A stretch of DNA of 64,000 nucleotides from positions 124,001 through 188,000 of the forward strand of contig NZ_JAEQBW010000008.1 in NCBI RefSeq assembly GCF_016679925.1, written 5' to 3'. Shown piece after piece: positions 51,967 through 63,201 of this stretch. The stretch is from Marivirga aurantiaca. GTDB taxonomy: Bacteria; Bacteroidota; Bacteroidia; Cytophagales; Cyclobacteriaceae. The position numbers and the translations under genes were made by a program. How positions within the stretch are numbered: the stretch's first letter is position 1; every line of letters starts with the position of its first letter. The notes beneath the pieces were generated by a model that was given only the letters and a program-made list of their open reading frames with translations, was not told the DNA's origin and searched no databases.

Positions 51967-52386
51967 ATGAAATTAACTATATGTCCTAAATGTCAGTCCG
52001 AGGAAATTGTGAAAAGTGGTATAATTAAAAACAGACAAAGATTCAAGTGCAAGGGTTGTAATTATAATTTCACAGTAAGTAAAGTAGGTAAGGAAATAGA
52101 TTCTTATTATGTAGTGAAGGCACTTCAACTGTATGTAGAAGGAATTTCAATGAGGGAAATTGAACGGGTACTAGGAGTAAGCCATGTTTCTGTAAGCAAT
52201 TGGGTAAAGAAATATAACATAAAATCACCTGAGAAATATGAGTATCATCCCACTTATAAAGTGTTGTCACATAATGAATTAATCCGTTTTGTACAAGAGG
52301 AAAACAATTTAAGCGAAGCAGGTTTGATGATCACTTCCTTAGGAGATAAATATATGGTGATTAGGTGGGAGCGATTCAGACAATAG
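51967..52386 (+). CDS. IS1-InsA-like zinc-ribbon/HTH DNA-binding protein without transposase domain
   Basis: A 139-residue protein. Cys6-x2-Cys9 and Cys28-x2-Cys31 form a zinc ribbon with IKNRQRFKCKGCNYNF, as in the InsA/IS1595-type N-terminal domain; a helix-turn-helix (about 54-83, GISMREIERVLGVSHVSVSNW) follows. The last 50 residues have no DDE catalytic part and no InsB frame follows; no terminal inverted repeats are seen. It is therefore more likely a domesticated regulator than a transposase. It is first in line of the acetate operon, 110 bp before the porin gene. Confidence 0.75.
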   Translation: MKLTICPKCQSEEIVKSGIIKNRQRFKCKGCNYNFTVSKVGKEIDSYYVVKALQLYVEGISMREIERVLGVSHVSVSNWVKKYNIKSPEKYEYHPTYKVLSHNELIRFVQEENNLSEAGLMITSLGDKYMVIRWERFRQ

Positions 52387-53866: not shown

Positions 53867-54130
53867 ATGACTGAAAAACAAGCAAGTATGAAAGCCTATT
53901 GGAAGAGAAATCTTCGGTATTTACTCATTCTACTCATCATCTGGTTTATAGTGTCCTATGGCTTTGGGATTTTACTGGTTGAACCATTGAACACCATTAA
54001 AATAGCGGGATTTCCTCTCGGTTTTTGGTTCGCCCAGCAAGGGTCAATCTATGTTTTTGTAATTCTGATATTCGTGTACGTTCGTCTGATGAACAAGCTG
54101 GATAAGGAGTTTGATGTAGATGAAAAATAA
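53867..54130 (+). CDS. DUF4212 symporter small subunit
   Basis: An 87-residue two-helix membrane protein of the DUF4212 family: YWKRNLRYLLILLIIWFIVSYGFG, GFPLGFWFAQQGSIYVFVILIFVYVRLMNKLD. Members are always paired with a VC_2705-type sodium:solute symporter; here that gene starts 26 bp downstream. It is thought to be an accessory subunit. Confidence 0.88.
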   Translation: MTEKQASMKAYWKRNLRYLLILLIIWFIVSYGFGILLVEPLNTIKIAGFPLGFWFAQQGSIYVFVILIFVYVRLMNKLDKEFDVDEK

Positions 54131-54156: not shown

Positions 54157-55851
54157 ATGGATGTACAAATATGGACATATTTATTAGTGGGAGTCACTTT
54201 CGCTATTTATATAGGAATTGCTATCTGGTCAAGGGCCGGATCAACAAAAGAGTTTTATGTCGCAGGAGGAGGAGTTTCTCCTTTGGCTAACGGAATGGCA
54301 ACGGCAGCCGATTGGATGTCAGCGGCTTCTTTCATTTCAATGGCAGGTATTATTTCTTTTGCCGGCTATGATGGTGCTGTTTACTTAATGGGCTGGACTG
54401 GTGGTTACGTATTGTTAGCCTTATTGCTTGCTCCTTATCTCAGGAAATTCGGAAAATTCACAGTGCCTGATTTTATTGGTGACAGATACTATTCCAATAC
54501 GGCCAGAACTGTTGCGGTAATCTGTGCACTTTTTGTATCGTTCACTTATGTGGCGGGGCAAATGAGAGGTGTTGGTGTTGTATTTAGTCGCTTTCTGGAG
54601 GTTGATATCAATACCGGAGTTTACATAGGAATGGCTATTGTTTTCTTCTATGCAGTTTTAGGTGGCATGAAAGGAATTACTTATACGCAGGTGGCGCAGT
54701 ATGTGATCCTTATTTTTGCATTTATGGTTCCTGCCATTTTTATATCTATACAGCTGACTGGCAATCCCATTCCTCAGTTGGGTTTTGGTTCAACTGTTAC
54801 AGGTAGCGAAACCTATTTACTTGATAAATTGAATGGATTGCATGTGGAATTAGGTTTTGCCGAATATACCAGTGGATCTAAATCAATGATTGACGTTTTC
54901 TTTATTACTGCTGCATTAATGGTAGGTACAGCCGGTTTACCCCACGTAATCGTACGTTTTTTTACAGTGCCGAAAGTAAAAGATGCCCGTCTTTCTGCAG
55001 GCTATGCTTTAGTATTTATAGCTATTCTTTATACCAGTGCTCCTGCAGTGGCTGCTTTTGCAAGGACCAACCTCATTGAAACAGTAAGTAATAATAGTTA
55101 CTCCAGCATGCCAGAATGGTTTAGAAATTGGGAGAAAACGGGACTACTTACTTTTAAAGATAAAAATAATGATGGAGTTATTCAATATGTGGCAAATGAT
55201 GAAAGAAATGAATTGACCATAGACAGAGACATTATGGTGTTAGCTAATCCTGAAATTGCACAACTGCCTAACTGGGTGGTGGCACTGGTAGCAGCAGGAG
55301 GCCTTGCAGCGGCTCTTTCTACAGCAGCAGGTTTGCTTTTGGTGATTTCAACTTCTGTATCGCACGATTTGGTGAAAAAGCAGATTGCTCCTAATATTAC
55401 CGATAGTGTGGAACTGTGGATTGCCAGGGGATCTGCTATTGTTGCAGTGGTTATAGCTGGCTACTTTGGTATTAATCCTCCGGGCTTTGTTGCCGCAGTG
55501 GTAGCACTTGCTTTCGGTTTGGCAGCAGCATCCTTTTTCCCTGCTATTATAATGGGTATATTCTACCAACGAATGAACAAGCAGGGAGCCATTGCGGGTA
55601 TGATTTCAGGCTTATCCATCACGCTATTTTACATGATAGCATTTAAGTTTAATGCCTTTGGGGAAACCACTTCTGCTGATTGGTGGTTTGGGATTTCTCC
55701 GGAAGGATTTGGAACTGTAGGTATGGTCGTAAACTTTCTTGTATCATTTATAGTAAGTTCCATGACTCCACCTCCACCACAACATGTTATGGACATTGTG
55801 GATGATATCAGGTTTCCACGAGGAGCAGGAGTTGCACCTGACACTCATTAA
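54157..55851 (+). CDS. sodium:solute symporter, VC_2705/ActP-like (probable acetate uptake)
   Basis: A 564-residue symporter of about thirteen helices with the SSS signature GGGVSPLANGMATAADWMSAASF and GLAAALSTAAGLLLVISTSVSHDL. A soluble loop near residue 335 holds DKNNDGVIQ, an EF-hand-like sequence typical of this subfamily, followed by NELTIDRDIMVLANPEIA. Genetic linkage to acetyl-CoA synthetase makes acetate or a short carboxylate the likely substrate. It is an inner-membrane protein acting with the DUF4212 subunit. Confidence 0.88.
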   Translation: MDVQIWTYLLVGVTFAIYIGIAIWSRAGSTKEFYVAGGGVSPLANGMATAADWMSAASFISMAGIISFAGYDGAVYLMGWTGGYVLLALLLAPYLRKFGKFTVPDFIGDRYYSNTARTVAVICALFVSFTYVAGQMRGVGVVFSRFLEVDINTGVYIGMAIVFFYAVLGGMKGITYTQVAQYVILIFAFMVPAIFISIQLTGNPIPQLGFGSTVTGSETYLLDKLNGLHVELGFAEYTSGSKSMIDVFFITAALMVGTAGLPHVIVRFFTVPKVKDARLSAGYALVFIAILYTSAPAVAAFARTNLIETVSNNSYSSMPEWFRNWEKTGLLTFKDKNNDGVIQYVANDERNELTIDRDIMVLANPEIAQLPNWVVALVAAGGLAAALSTAAGLLLVISTSVSHDLVKKQIAPNITDSVELWIARGSAIVAVVIAGYFGINPPGFVAAVVALAFGLAAASFFPAIIMGIFYQRMNKQGAIAGMISGLSITLFYMIAFKFNAFGETTSADWWFGISPEGFGTVGMVVNFLVSFIVSSMTPPPPQHVMDIVDDIRFPRGAGVAPDTH

Positions 55852-55925: not shown

Positions 55926-56135
55926 ATGGTATTAAGAGATACAGCAAAGAGATTGGCATTTATCAGTGTACTATTTATTATACTGTTCAATTTTCCATTT
56001 ATTGCTGTTTTCAATACTTTTCAAAGCTATTTAGGGGTGCCTGTTTTATACCTGTACATGTTTATTGTATGGGTTTTATTCATTATTGTTCTCATTGTAT
56101 TTATGAGAAAAAATATAAATAGCAACAGAAAATGA
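55926..56135 (+). CDS. small two-helix membrane protein paired with the sensor kinase
   Basis: A 69-residue protein with two membrane helices (LAFISVLFIILFNFPFIAVF and LYLYMFIVWVLFIIVLIVF) and a basic tail. Its stop overlaps the kinase start (ATGA), so translation is coupled. Size, topology and the position before a symporter-domain protein parallel the DUF4212/DUF485 small subunits, although overall similarity is weak. It may serve the symporter domain of the sensor. An overlapping frame at 55916 is rejected as a shadow. Confidence 0.7.
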   Translation: MVLRDTAKRLAFISVLFIILFNFPFIAVFNTFQSYLGVPVLYLYMFIVWVLFIIVLIVFMRKNINSNRK

Positions 56136-58915
56136 TCAGCAATTGGGTAGTCATATTAATTTCTGTAGGTTACCTGATTTTATTGTTTCTGGTAGCCTAT
56201 TTTGGTGAATACCGGGCGAAAAAAGGAAAAAGTTTATTAAAAAACCCTTACATCTACGCCTTAAGTCTGGCTGTTTACTGTACCGCCTGGACCTATTATG
56301 GATCAGTGGGAAATGCTGCTGAGTCGGGCTTGAACTTCCTGGCTACTTACATTGGGCCTACACTACTGGCCCCCATCTGGTGGTTGATCTTTAAAAAAAT
56401 CATCAGAATAAGCAAAGTCTACAGAATTACCACTATTGCGGATCTTATTTCAACACGGTATGGTAAATCAGTTGCGCTGGGTAGACTTGTGGCTATATTC
56501 TGTGTGTTAGGAATTATTCCTTATATCTCTATTCAGTTGAAAGCGATCTCTTCCAGCTTTCAAATGGTATCTGGTTCAAATTTGGTAAGCAGTTCGGATG
56601 CTGCAATTTCCGGTCATATTTTTAATGATTATACGCTTTATATCACCATAGGCCTTGCATTTTTCACCATCCTATTTGGCACCAGAAATATAGATGCCAC
56701 AGTAAAACAGGAAGGGATGGTAACCGCCATTGCTTTTGAGTCAATTTTAAAACTGGTAGCTTTCTTAGTAGTCGGCTTTTTTATCACTTTCGTGGTTTTT
56801 GATGGCTTTAGTGATATTTTCTCTCATGTAGAGAATGATCCATCACTTAGCGGTTTAACTACTTTAGATTCCAATGGCGGTTATTCAGAGTGGTTTTGGC
56901 TCAACATGTTGTCAATGATGGCATTTATGTTTTTACCGAGGCAATTCCATGTTTCCATTAAAGAAAATACGAGTGAAAAACACCTGGATAAAGCTATATG
57001 GCTGTTTCCTCTCTACCTTTTGGTGATCAATATTTTTGTAATACCTATTGCTTTTGCAGGGAAAGTAATGTTTTCCGGGCAGAGTGAAGTTTTATCAGAT
57101 ACTTTTGTCCTAGCCATTCCTATTTTACTCTCTCAGGATTTTCTTGCCATATTTGTTTATTTAGGAGGTTTTGCTGCCGGTACCAGTATGGTTATAGTTT
57201 CTACAATTGCCCTCAGTATCATGATCAGTAACAACCTGATTTTTCCTTATTTGGTGAGTAATAAACAATTCACCAGATTTAATAAAGGCAATTTTAGCAG
57301 GTTTTTATTGAATATCCGCAGGGCAAGCATACTTCTGGTTTTACTATTAAGCTATGCGTACTACAGTTTAATAAGTTTTCGTTTTTCAATTGTTTCCATT
57401 GGTTTAATTTCATTTGTAGCGGTAGCGCAATTTGCTCCTGCGGTAATTGGAGGTATTTTCTGGAAAGAAGGAAATAAAAAGGGGGCAATAAGCGGTTTGG
57501 TTGCGGGCTTTACTATTTGGTTTCTATTCCTGGTATTGCCTACTATTGACCAGACGGGATTTATTTCTTTCCTTATTCAAAATGATAAACTTTTTAATTT
57601 TATTCCTTTAGCAGATGGACAGGCTTTTGGTTTGCCAATGAATAAAATTCCGGCTTCACTTTTTTGGAGTTTGCTAATCAATACTTCATTGTATGTTTTC
57701 CTATCTCTCAGGTTTATGCAAAGCTCTAAAGAGAGAAATCAGGCAGAGGTATTTGTAGATGTATTCAAATATTCCAAAGAGTTTGAATCAACTATGGTCT
57801 GGAAGGGAACAGCTTATGTTCAGGACATTGAAGAATTGCTAACTCATTTTGTGGGTGTTCGAAAAACCAAAGAAATTCTGAAAGAGTATGAGTATAAGTA
57901 TAATTTAAGCCTGAAAAAGGAAGACAGGGCAGATTCTAAATTGGTAAACTCAGTAGAAAGAACTTTAGCCGGTCTGATTGGCTCTTCTTCTGCCCGGCTT
58001 TTAATTAGTACCACCCTAAAAGAGGAGGAGATATCCACCAAAGAAGTGCTTGATATTTTGAAAGAAACACAGCAGATTGTGATTGTAAATAAACAATTGA
58101 AAGAAAAGTCACAGGCGCTGGAAGAGGTTACAAAGGAATTATTTAGCAGTAATGAGAAGCTGAGGAAAATGGATCATACAAAAGATGAATTTATCAGTAC
58201 AATAACGCACGAAATGAGAACTCCGATAACTTCTATTAGAGCCTTTTCAGAGATTTTGCATGACAATAGTGATATTTCTTTAGGTGATAAACAACAGTTT
58301 CTGAATACCATCATAAAGGAAACAGAGCGAATGGACAGGCTTATTTCCCAGGTATTGGATCTGGAAAAGTTTAATAGCGGCAAACAGGAATTTCATTTGG
58401 AATATTTAAAAATTAATGAATTAATACTAGAGGCCATTCAATCCGTTCAAACATTATTAGAACAAAGAGGTATTGAATTAACTACTAAGCTGGAAGAAAG
58501 CAGTGAATATATCTATGGGGATAATGACAGGTTAATTCAGGTTTTGCTTAATTTAATTTCTAATGCGATTAAATTTTGCGATGCTAAAGCTGGAAAAATA
58601 CAAATAGTTAGTAAGCAGGTAGAGGGTAATTTTGTGGTGGAAGTAATAGATAATGGGAAGGGAATTATGAAGGAAATTCAACATTCCATTTTTGACGTAT
58701 TTTATCAGGCACCGGATCAAACACGAAAGAAGCCAAAAGGAAGTGGTTTAGGTTTAAGTATTTGTAAGAAAATTATTGAATACCATCATGGGAAAATTTG
58801 GGTGGAAAGCAATGAACAGCATGGTTCGAAATTTATTTTCACACTCCCCGCAAAATTAAATAAAAGTTTAACAGAGCAGCAAAGTTATTTGAATGAAGAA
58901 AATTTTAATAGTTGA
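56132..58915 (+). CDS. symporter-STAC-histidine kinase, CbrA/CrbS-like
   Basis: A 927-residue sensor. Residues 1-540 form a sodium:solute-symporter domain of about thirteen helices (AVYCTAWTYYGSVGNAAESG, PRQFHVSIKEN, FAPAVIGGIFW). Residues 545-645 match a STAC-type linker. The kinase core has the phosphoacceptor His693 (ITHEMRTPITS), N-box NLISNAIKF, VIDNGKGI and GSGLGLSICKK. In Vibrio the similar CrbS with CrbR controls acetyl-CoA synthetase expression; here the kinase is followed by a receiver gene and acs. No PAS domain is evident. Confidence 0.87.
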   Translation: MISNWVVILISVGYLILLFLVAYFGEYRAKKGKSLLKNPYIYALSLAVYCTAWTYYGSVGNAAESGLNFLATYIGPTLLAPIWWLIFKKIIRISKVYRITTIADLISTRYGKSVALGRLVAIFCVLGIIPYISIQLKAISSSFQMVSGSNLVSSSDAAISGHIFNDYTLYITIGLAFFTILFGTRNIDATVKQEGMVTAIAFESILKLVAFLVVGFFITFVVFDGFSDIFSHVENDPSLSGLTTLDSNGGYSEWFWLNMLSMMAFMFLPRQFHVSIKENTSEKHLDKAIWLFPLYLLVINIFVIPIAFAGKVMFSGQSEVLSDTFVLAIPILLSQDFLAIFVYLGGFAAGTSMVIVSTIALSIMISNNLIFPYLVSNKQFTRFNKGNFSRFLLNIRRASILLVLLLSYAYYSLISFRFSIVSIGLISFVAVAQFAPAVIGGIFWKEGNKKGAISGLVAGFTIWFLFLVLPTIDQTGFISFLIQNDKLFNFIPLADGQAFGLPMNKIPASLFWSLLINTSLYVFLSLRFMQSSKERNQAEVFVDVFKYSKEFESTMVWKGTAYVQDIEELLTHFVGVRKTKEILKEYEYKYNLSLKKEDRADSKLVNSVERTLAGLIGSSSARLLISTTLKEEEISTKEVLDILKETQQIVIVNKQLKEKSQALEEVTKELFSSNEKLRKMDHTKDEFISTITHEMRTPITSIRAFSEILHDNSDISLGDKQQFLNTIIKETERMDRLISQVLDLEKFNSGKQEFHLEYLKINELILEAIQSVQTLLEQRGIELTTKLEESSEYIYGDNDRLIQVLLNLISNAIKFCDAKAGKIQIVSKQVEGNFVVEVIDNGKGIMKEIQHSIFDVFYQAPDQTRKKPKGSGLGLSICKKIIEYHHGKIWVESNEQHGSKFIFTLPAKLNKSLTEQQSYLNEENFNS

Positions 58916-59252
58916 CGATGAACCTAATATTTTATTGTCCCTTGAGTTCCTTATGAAAAAGGAAGGGTATGAAGTTTTTATTGCCCGAAATGGAAGAGAA
59001 GCCATTGAAATTGTGAAAAAGGAACTACCTGATGCATTAATCCTTGACATTATGATGCCAGAAGTGGATGGTTTTGAGGTATGCGAGTTTATTAAAAAAA
59101 ATAACAAGACAGCCCACATTAAAGTGGTGTTTCTTACAGCAAAAGCAAAAGATTCAGATATTCAAAAAGGCCTTTCAGTAGGAGCTGATCTGTACCTGAA
59201 AAAGCCTTTTTCAACCAAAGAATTAGTAAAAAAAGTAAATGAGATTTTTTAA
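58893..59252 (+). CDS. receiver-only response regulator
   Basis: A 119-residue CheY-like protein consisting only of a REC domain: Asp8, Asp9, phosphorylatable Asp52 (LILDIMMPEVDG), Thr82, Lys104-Pro105. It overlaps the kinase gene by 23 bp, so it is its cognate partner. The LuxR-type HTH of CrbR/CbrB-like partners is absent. It must pass its signal by protein contact or act on a separate DNA-binding protein. Confidence 0.9.
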   Translation: MKKILIVDDEPNILLSLEFLMKKEGYEVFIARNGREAIEIVKKELPDALILDIMMPEVDGFEVCEFIKKNNKTAHIKVVFLTAKAKDSDIQKGLSVGADLYLKKPFSTKELVKKVNEIF

Positions 59253-59268
59253 TTAAAATATAAAAATT

Positions 59269-61166
<1,898 letters not shown>

Positions 61167-61167
<1 letters not shown>

Positions 61168-61298
61168 TGTCTGGAGTATTCATCTCCAAATGCCTGGCGG
61201 TAAGGAGTTTTGCGGTAGTGCTGTTTTTACTATGGATATGTAAATACTTAAATGACGAAAAACTCAGAGATCATAAAAAGATGAAGGCAGATGGCTAA
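61167..61298 (+). CDS. small membrane peptide, 43 residues
   Basis: A 43-codon frame begins with an ATG that shares one base with the acs stop (TAATG) and ends at 61298, overlapping the next gene's ATG at 61291 by 8 bp. The product has one hydrophobic helix (CLAVRSFAVVLFLLWICKYL) and a charged tail (NDEKLRDHKKMKADG). It fills the otherwise empty 123-bp space. The tight double overlap suggests translational coupling. No known family. Confidence 0.5.
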
Positions 61299-63201
61299 TA
61301 TTATTTCTTCTAAAATAGCTGATTTTATTGTACGATTTCCTCCTTTTGATAGCTTAAAGACTGATGAAATAAGCAGCTTAAGCGAAGAGGCCGAGGTACT
61401 CTATTTTAAAAAAGGAGAATCAGTTTTTAAGCATAAGGAAAAAGCCAGGCCCTTTATTTATTTCCTGAAAGAAGGCCAGGTGCTGTTACGTGAAACTGTT
61501 GATGCTCAAAAAAAACTGATAGATATCTGTGATGAGGGCGAGTTGTTTGGTGTAAGAGCCATGCTGACTGGCAATCCTTATGTTTTCGAAGCATTTTGTC
61601 AGGAAGAATCTCTGGTGTATGCTTTTCCTCTTTCTGTTTTCAAGCCAATAGTGGAGTCAAACAATAATGTAAGTTTGTTTTTTGCTTCAGGATTGGCTTC
61701 CGGTCAAAAACCTACCGGACTTAATACCCTCTACAGACAAAGCGATCCAGATAAGGTTTCTGATTTCTTAAGCTGGCAAAAACCATTGGAAGAGTTAAGC
61801 GAGCCACTTCTGCTTGTGAAATCCAATACTACTATAAAATCAGCTGCACTTGAAATGACAGCTAAAGCATCCAATGGTATAGTAGTAACCAATGAGGAAG
61901 GGAAAGCTGTTGGAATTGTTACTGACACTGATTTTAGGGCAAAAGTAGCCGGAGGGACATTTTCCATTGAGGATCCTGTTTCCACAATAATGTCTACTAA
62001 TTTAATTGCGAAGCAGTTGGGGCTTCCCCTGGCTGAATACCTGATAAGCATGCTGAAGCATAATATTAAACATTTGCTTATTACTAAAGAGGAAGAGGTG
62101 GTAGGTGTTTTCAGTCAGCAAACTTTATTTTCACATCTGCAATTCAATCCATTTTCTATTTTATATAATATCGAGTCTGCTGAAAATGTAGAAAAATTAT
62201 GCTTTCATAGAAATAATGTAGATCATTTCTTAAGATATTATCTTGAGCAAAATATCAAAACAGCTGTTATTTCTCAACTCATTACCACGATTAACGATGC
62301 ACTCATTAAAAAAGCTATTCAATTCTCTTTAGCTGCACTGGATGAAGAGAAATATTATAGACCTGATGTTCCTTTTGCCTGGATTTCTTTAGGGAGTGAA
62401 GGAAGAGAAGAGCAATTGTTACGGACAGATCAGGATAATGCACTCATTTTTGGGAATGTAAATGCTGCGCAGTTAAATTATACACGAGAATACTTTATTC
62501 AGTTGGCCAGGCGAGTAAATGGTATTCTTTTTCAGGCAGGATTTGCTTATTGCCCTGCCAACATGATGGCCAGAAATCCTGATTGGTGTCTGAGCATTTC
62601 TGAATGGAAAAATCGCTTTGAAGGGTGGATTCACTCCCCCGAAAAAGAAGCACTTTTGCTATCTACTATTTTTTTCGATTACAGATATATTTATGGTGAA
62701 GAGGAGTTGGTTCAAATGTTGAATAGTTTCCTTAAAAACGAAGTGCAATCCCATAAAATTTTTCTGAATTTTCTGGCAAAAAATGCCACAAAAAATCCCG
62801 CACCACTAAGCTTCTTTAAAAATTTTGTAGTGGAAAGATCAGGTGTGCACAAAGAAGAATTTGATTTGAAAGCCAGGGCTTTAATGCCCCTGACTGATAT
62901 TGCACGGGTTTTATGCCTTGAGGCAGGAAATGTCACCATTAAAAACACAGTTGAGCGATATCGCTTTTTAGCTGAGCAAGACAAATCACGCAAAGAGCTA
63001 TACCTGCAAGCAGCGCAAGCCTATGAATTCCTGATGCATTTCCGGGCTTCAGAAGGAATCAGAAACAATGATTCGGGTCGTTTTATTCTTATAAAACAAA
63101 TTTCAAAGTTCGATAGGCAGGTTTTAAGGAACTCCTTTGAACCTATTAATGAGCTACAGCAAATGATTGAATTAAGGTTTCAACTAAATTATTTTTCCTG
63201 A
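61291..63201 (+). CDS. cNMP-binding / CBS / DUF294 nucleotidyltransferase protein
   Basis: A 636-residue cytosolic protein. Residues 10-130 are a cyclic-nucleotide-binding-like domain, 165-300 a CBS pair (GIVVTNEEGKAVGIVTDTDFR, LITKEEEVVGVFSQQ), then a DUF294 nucleotidyltransferase with WISLGSEGREEQLLRTDQDN (Gly368-Ser369, Asp380, Asp382) and a C-terminal helical DUF294_C part. In proteobacteria such genes sit beside actP/acs or symporter-kinase genes, as here, so a signalling role in carboxylate metabolism is likely (recalled, not checked). The target of nucleotide transfer is unknown. Confidence 0.87.
   Translation: MANIISSKIADFIVRFPPFDSLKTDEISSLSEEAEVLYFKKGESVFKHKEKARPFIYFLKEGQVLLRETVDAQKKLIDICDEGELFGVRAMLTGNPYVFEAFCQEESLVYAFPLSVFKPIVESNNNVSLFFASGLASGQKPTGLNTLYRQSDPDKVSDFLSWQKPLEELSEPLLLVKSNTTIKSAALEMTAKASNGIVVTNEEGKAVGIVTDTDFRAKVAGGTFSIEDPVSTIMSTNLIAKQLGLPLAEYLISMLKHNIKHLLITKEEEVVGVFSQQTLFSHLQFNPFSILYNIESAENVEKLCFHRNNVDHFLRYYLEQNIKTAVISQLITTINDALIKKAIQFSLAALDEEKYYRPDVPFAWISLGSEGREEQLLRTDQDNALIFGNVNAAQLNYTREYFIQLARRVNGILFQAGFAYCPANMMARNPDWCLSISEWKNRFEGWIHSPEKEALLLSTIFFDYRYIYGEEELVQMLNSFLKNEVQSHKIFLNFLAKNATKNPAPLSFFKNFVVERSGVHKEEFDLKARALMPLTDIARVLCLEAGNVTIKNTVERYRFLAEQDKSRKELYLQAAQAYEFLMHFRASEGIRNNDSGRFILIKQISKFDRQVLRNSFEPINELQQMIELRFQLNYFS

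Follow-up and report, generated by a model that had tools for sequence, protein, structure and literature searches.

A small two-helix protein as a probable CbrX-family subunit of an SLC5-STAC histidine kinase in Marivirga aurantiaca, with counterparts in several bacterial phyla

We analysed a stretch of 64,000 nucleotides from Marivirga aurantiaca (contig NZ_JAEQBW010000008.1), referred to below as the window. A protein of 69 aa encoded immediately ahead of an SLC5-STAC histidine kinase is probably a CbrX-family subunit of that kinase; it would be made in step with it, sit as a hairpin on transmembrane helices 3 and 8 (TM3 and TM8), brace the transporter domain and help to set its assembly and the passage of the signal. 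Such a partner is already known from CbrX, and what is new here is its breadth and exclusivity. In the genomes searched, the two-helix protein is apparently a dedicated partner of SLC5 kinases, near-universal among them and exclusive to them. The features of the locus are summarized in Table 1.

Table 1. Features of the kinase locus, in window coordinates.
Feature	Position	Strand	Basis
DUF4212 small subunit of the neighbouring symporter	53867..54130	+	PF13937 (E 2.9e-37), TIGR03647 (E 1.7e-35)
VC_2705-family sodium/solute symporter	54157..55851	+	TIGR03648
Small two-TM protein, 69 aa, CbrX-family kinase partner (probable)	55926..56135	+	ORF, hydropathy, homologues, profile comparison, AlphaFold2
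ATGA overlap, kinase start inside the small-ORF stop	56132..56135	+	Sequence; translational coupling putative
SLC5-STAC histidine kinase, 927 aa	56132..58915	+	PDB 10ed_A alignment; HisKA and HATPase_c matches
Kinase TM3, residues 68-92, putative small-subunit contact	56333..56407	+	PMC13022988 site; relaxed in partner-less clade; limits by hydropathy and topology
Kinase periplasmic TM6/7 loop, residues 223-251, putative contact	56798..56884	+	PMC13022988 site; relaxed in partner-less clade
Kinase TM8, residues 286-312, putative contact	56987..57067	+	PMC13022988 site; relaxed in partner-less clade
Response regulator, 119 aa, receiver domain only	58893..59252	+	ORF, domain scan
Acetate--CoA ligase (acs)	59269..61167	+	Downstream of regulator

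The Small Gene and Its Protein

The small ORF starts with ATG at 55926 and ends with a TGA stop at 56133-56135, and its last four nucleotides (ATGA) are shared with the kinase, whose ATG lies at 56132. It is a real, conserved protein-coding gene, because the dN/dS ratio within the genus is low (0.16-0.19 in five informative pairs, with dS of 1.5-1.7, near saturation) and because at least five phyla have homologues next to kinases of this type. The hydropathy profile of the protein has two peaks, at residues ~10-28 and ~40-58. AlphaFold2, run with 91 homologues, predicted helices at residues 3-20, 23-28 and 40-66 (mean pLDDT 69.8, pTM 0.45), so that the hairpin model is of modest confidence. 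By hydropathy and by this prediction, the product is a short protein with two membrane helices, as is expected of a CbrX-type subunit. Scans of the 69-aa protein against Pfam and NCBIfam gave no model at E < 0.1. The most conserved residues were P24 (240 of 242 well-covered copies), P39 (233 of 242) and W49 (240 of 242), and the motif of the window-type proteins can be written as N[FY]P...GxPxLYxYxFxxW.

The initial annotation had placed a two-helix protein ahead of the symporter-domain sensor and a DUF4212 small subunit beside the transporter, and both placements were confirmed. A two-TM small ORF adjoins the start of just two of the 35 long ORFs (at least 250 aa) in the window, and these are the kinase with the small ORF and the DUF4212 pair. 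Two-TM ORFs of 60-130 aa numbered four in the real window versus zero to two in 10 first-order shuffles, a chance estimate that is based on the window alone.

Relationship to CbrX and Other Two-Helix Proteins

The homologue alignment contained 91 of the 94 distinct small proteins, since three with long tails (L078-L080) were left out. Of 219 window-type proteins, 68 scored above 10 bits with a profile built from nine CbrX sequences without iteration, versus 1 of 2658 two-TM decoys and none of 1095 shuffled or 219 reversed window-type proteins; the median scores were 7.0 bits for the window-type proteins and −0.5 for the decoys. In hhalign comparisons, the window-type set matched CbrX with a probability of 92.6% (E 6e-8) and the set found beside other proteobacterial kinases with 97.3%, while the reversed controls gave at most 2.1%. 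By these controlled profile tests, the window protein and CbrX are remotely homologous. The link is detectable only by profile-profile comparison or with the CbrX profile; PDB searches with the window protein (phmmer) or with its own profiles did not report 10ed_X, the CbrX chain that stands alongside 10ed_A in PDB entry 10ed, and the profiles gave no match in the PDB. This chain of 58 residues is deposited as 'MFS transporter', a name that its sequence does not bear out.

The two proteins are alike in being small and two-helical and in having their gene just upstream of, and overlapping, that of an SLC5-STAC kinase. In CbrX, however, the loop is shorter and the motif resembles SP...WW...WYxPYLxW instead of the one given above. 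The kinases differ as well: CbrA is reported to have a PAS domain (PMC13022988) and works with CbrB, whereas in the window kinase no PAS domain was found and a lone-receiver regulator lies beside acs.

Other families were also compared. The DUF4212/TIGR03647 proteins of VC_2705-type symporters resemble the window protein in having two helices and in partnering an SLC5-type protein whose gene directly follows theirs, but their partner is a transporter instead of a kinase, and sequence kinship was undetectable. PF13937 and TIGR03647 did not match the window protein up to E 10, and hhalign gave 0.8% for DUF4212. A kinship between the small protein and the transporter's DUF4212 subunit was thus rejected, and the likeness is one of analogy. 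DUF3311 proteins, one of which is encoded beside mctP in Sinorhizobium (PMC9100948), are two-helix proteins that adjoin SLC5-type transporters, and they share by eye a look of P...N...GxP. The window protein was not among the matches of DUF3311 (PF11755), five of its 91 homologues were matched at E ≤ 0.1 (best 1.9e-4, below the curated cut-off), and the hhalign probability, obtained with seven DUF3311-type sequences, was 25.5%.

What Has Been Reported of CbrX

The cbrX gene was described in 2019 as an ORF of 58 codons that overlaps cbrA and is translationally coupled to it (PMC6591292). In that paper, an importance of the identity of the CbrX peptide was judged highly improbable, and a role as a leader was concluded. 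A preprint of March 2026 reports a cryo-EM structure in which CbrX is bound to CbrA at TM3 and TM8, below the loop between TM6 and TM7, and its authors suspect a role in the dimer contact (PMC13022988). The initial annotation took a small partner of such a sensor to be undescribed, but one had been reported for CbrA in both of these works. CbrAB has been termed unique to Pseudomonadaceae (PMC8871633). No such partner was seen for the CrbS and RpuS kinases in the accessible parts of the papers on them (PMC5715377, PMC9100948) and of a review (PMC7918813). Our literature search, which covered mainly freely available papers, found no paper taking CbrX beyond Pseudomonadaceae.

The Kinase and Its Neighbourhood

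Residues 7-629 of the window kinase align with residues 10-592 of PDB 10ed_A (606 residues, E 1.5e-71). The length of 10ed_A, the presence of 10ed_X beside it and the preprint lead us to regard it as the SLC5-STAC portion of P. putida CbrA. HisKA and HATPase_c domains follow the SLC5-STAC part, so that an SLC5 domain, a STAC domain and a kinase core are all present; the SSF match in Pfam was just below its cut-off (20.3 versus 22.8 bits). The domain scan of the kinase found no PAS and no receiver domain.

The CrbS/CrbR system (MxtR/ErdR) shares with this locus an SLC5-domain kinase in an acetate setting. However, CrbS is described as hybrid and as paired with a LuxR-type regulator (PMC5715377, PMC9100948), whereas the window kinase is non-hybrid, with no receiver of its own, and its regulator consists of a receiver without any LuxR-type part. 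The cognate regulator lacks an output domain, unlike CrbR or CbrB. The presence of acs next to the regulator suggests an acetate regulon, and acetate is a plausible signal of the kinase in view of the adjacent symporter and acs.

Residue K207 of the kinase (56750-56752) aligns with K196 of the Na2 site of CbrA. This position is K in 326 of 328 SLC5 kinases and E in two, and the K is retained in the partner-less clade too. Its conservation hints at proton-linked transporter domains throughout the SLC5 kinases. Elsewhere in the window, a 139-aa ORF (51967-52386) has a zinc-ribbon start and a helix-turn-helix and looks by eye like a fragment of an IS1-type transposase.

Distribution of the Partner

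We surveyed kinase genes for such partners, as the initial annotation had proposed, by scanning one genome per species with the SLC5 part of the kinase; at least 588 relatives were obtained. A homologue of the small protein was found just upstream on the same strand in 79 of the best 80 of these relatives. The sole miss (L028) had no homologue within 6 kb upstream. By record title, the best 80 loci belong to Bacteroidota, several proteobacterial classes, Desulfobacterales, Chloroflexi, a Spirochaetia bin and Streptomyces.

The wider kinase set consisted of 346 loci, after 40 loci centred on the small gene had been dropped, and of 328 kinases without duplicates, four of which lay near a contig end and were left unscored. 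A partner gene was present in 277 of the 324 scorable distinct kinases and none was seen in 47, in a non-random sample made up of the best-scoring loci and 100 places picked by hand among the matches listed (40 of the organism's own order, 55 of Pseudomonadota and 5 of a further phylum). Nine cases with another kind of two-TM ORF were decided by eye, seven as partner and two (L356, L372) as none.

The pairing was examined in three sets of genomes. Of 59 genomes from relatives, 16 contain the kinase; a two-TM ORF lies at or near its start in 15 of these, and in the sixteenth it lies 567 nt upstream. In 296 Bacteroidota genomes, the small-protein profile matched 39 at E ≤ 0.001, comprising 32 matches below 1e-5 and seven weak partial ones. 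The 32 genomes with strong matches were the same 32 in which the kinase profile matched (E ≤ 1e-40), and the kinase was directly downstream on the same strand in all 30 small-protein loci examined. Some SLC5 kinase was found in 25 of 143 gammaproteobacterial genomes. The nine window-type kinases among them (E ≤ 1e-219), in eight genomes, stood at the same nine places as the nine small-protein matches. Most gammaproteobacterial kinases that look like CbrA have a CbrX-type ORF, and these include one in Methylonatrum (L105), outside Pseudomonas. A CbrX-type ORF was absent from the long kinases of hybrid size (L106, L175, L176 and L192). The idea that the symporter domain of the sensor has a small subunit of its own is thus well supported, by the one-to-one pairing of window-type proteins and kinases in the 296 and 143 genomes and by CbrX bound in 10ed.

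In one locus, on a plasmid of Paracoccus denitrificans (L421), the order is a nucleotidyltransferase-type gene, the small gene (annotated as 'hypothetical protein'), the kinase, a response regulator and an exonuclease-type gene. The 636-aa protein at 61291-63201 of the window resembles by eye what we take to be the nucleotidyltransferase kind of this Paracoccus locus.

Kinases without an Adjacent Partner

The FastTree phylogeny built from SLC5 domains implied eight changes in partner state. Of the 47 partner-less kinases, 39 form one clade, in which none has an adjacent partner; the others are L028, L191, L264, L265, L277, L320, L321 and L326. The search for a partner elsewhere in the genome used the window-type profile. 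Fusion of the partner to kinases that lack an adjacent one was considered and rejected, as no extra pair of helices was present and both groups mostly have 13 hydropathy peaks. The long CrbS-type kinases of hybrid size belong to the partner-less clade, the CrbS label being given by size and position. The initial annotation had suggested that the sensor's symporter domain needs a small subunit; such a need is not supported, given this clade and given that P. putida without CbrX is reported to grow on histidine (PMC13022988).

Per-column entropy was compared between the 39-kinase clade and samples of 39 partner-bearing kinases over 13 regions, whose limits came from hydropathy and topology and had been fixed before the first relaxation run. 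The three most relaxed of the 13 regions were the TM6/7 loop (+0.39), TM3 (+0.25) and TM8 (+0.19), which are the docking elements of CbrX on CbrA. The docking site differed from the rest with p of about 6e-6 to 9e-6 in three samplings, and TM3 and TM8 alone with p of about 0.003-0.004; these values describe a single evolutionary event, with columns treated as independent. None of 46 control clades with a partner ranked even two of the docking regions in its top three, and p < 0.01 was reached in 1 of 46 for the site against the rest and in 0 of 46 for TM3 and TM8, these clades being nested (drawn from eight non-nested ones). The relaxation of the docking elements in the clade without a partner supports a shared site, short of proof. 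In a coevolution analysis of 242 of 270 pairs, with an effective number of 148, which is too few, TM3 took part in 7 of the top 100 couplings and none of 25 permutations reached 7; TM8 and the whole site were not enriched.

Proposed Role and Alternative Explanations

Binding to the kinase and translational coupling are established by others for CbrX only. From it, we infer the same docking in Marivirga aurantiaca: the two-helix hairpin would pack on TM3 and TM8 of the SLC5 domain, beneath the periplasmic TM6/7 loop. Synthesis of the small protein would be kept in step with that of the kinase through the ATGA overlap, by a coupling modelled on cbrX-cbrA, the one pair in which it has been demonstrated (PMC6591292). 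The protein would probably serve to brace the kinase's transporter domain or to make it complete. It may further help to set the assembly of that domain, perhaps its dimer contact, and the way in which its state passes through STAC to the kinase, although an effect on dimerisation or signalling is speculative.

The main alternative is that of the 2019 cbrX paper, in which the small ORF acts only as a translational leader that brings ribosomes to the kinase start, and the peptide has no function. The overlap in the window agrees with it, as do the partner ORFs that overlap the kinase in 122 of 277 cases and the further 103 that end within 30 nt. In P. putida, translation of CbrA was rescued by a frameshifted peptide of the same length (PMC6591292), and cbrAB without cbrX supported growth (PMC13022988). 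However, the partner lies more than 60 nt upstream in 42 of 277 cases, six of them at more than 300 nt, and in L310, L317 and L318 it lies 930-1260 nt upstream, with a gene of 409-413 aa between in two of these loci and antisense genes in one. Neither conservation of particular residues nor persistence at a distance is expected of a mere leader, which is therefore disfavoured by the constraint on the protein (the dN/dS ratio and the conserved P24, P39 and W49) and by the retention of the gene at distances of 61 to about 1260 nt, also with another gene between. The stable CbrX-CbrA complex in 10ed likewise stands against it, and the relaxation of TM3, TM8 and the TM6/7 loop where the small protein is absent points to a function of the protein itself and to a common docking site, rather than to a leader that serves translation only. 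We consider a leader without any protein function unlikely. Leader and protein roles can nevertheless coexist.

Some arrangements of the genes deserve a description. The intervening gene of 409-413 aa (L317/L388 and L318/L389) encodes a likely signal peptide and helices, and in L388 it overlaps the stop of the small gene. In one Pseudomonas (L107), the ~200 nt between cbrX and cbrA contain several repeats of the cbrX tail, and the usual overlap is lost.

It is less likely still that the small protein helps with insertion or assembly, or that it acts as a distinct third component that senses a signal, with a kinase contact that is transient or at another face. Loss of CbrX gave no phenotype in the one growth test, which would suit such a role, but CbrX remains attached to CbrA through detergent purification and cryo-EM (PMC13022988), and the regions relaxed in kinases without a partner are the docking elements. 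That the protein serves the neighbouring symporter as a second accessory subunit is highly improbable, for although the symporter gene is directly upstream and its product has a two-helix partner of the DUF4212 kind, the small gene tracks the kinase across phyla (32 of 32 strong matches in kinase-bearing genomes, 30 of 30 loci adjoining a kinase), a symporter is not among the six features named in the 6.7-kb Paracoccus stretch, and the hhalign probability for DUF4212 is negligible.

The reading that we prefer remains a CbrX-family subunit of the kinase. A broader form of it is held tentatively, as quite possible: the CbrX-family hairpin may be an ancestral, near-obligatory third component across phyla, which binds at TM3, TM8 and the loop from TM6 to TM7 and governs either the gating of the transporter domain or the dimer contact, and the CrbS-type hybrid clade may have dispensed with it, whereupon the site relaxed.

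Implications for SLC5 Kinases

The interest here is in how a transporter fold came to serve as a sensor. CbrX was described first as a leader (2019) and later as a bound peptide that had not been expected (2026). The present work flags a small gene family for which the scans gave no matching Pfam or NCBIfam model. The survey suggests that the partner is a standard part of most sampled SLC5 kinases, rather than a Pseudomonas oddity. The clade without a partner, with its drifted docking surface, is a natural experiment that supplies residues, organisms and controls. With its breadth, its exclusivity and a single large loss, the small protein becomes a testable general component of these sensors.
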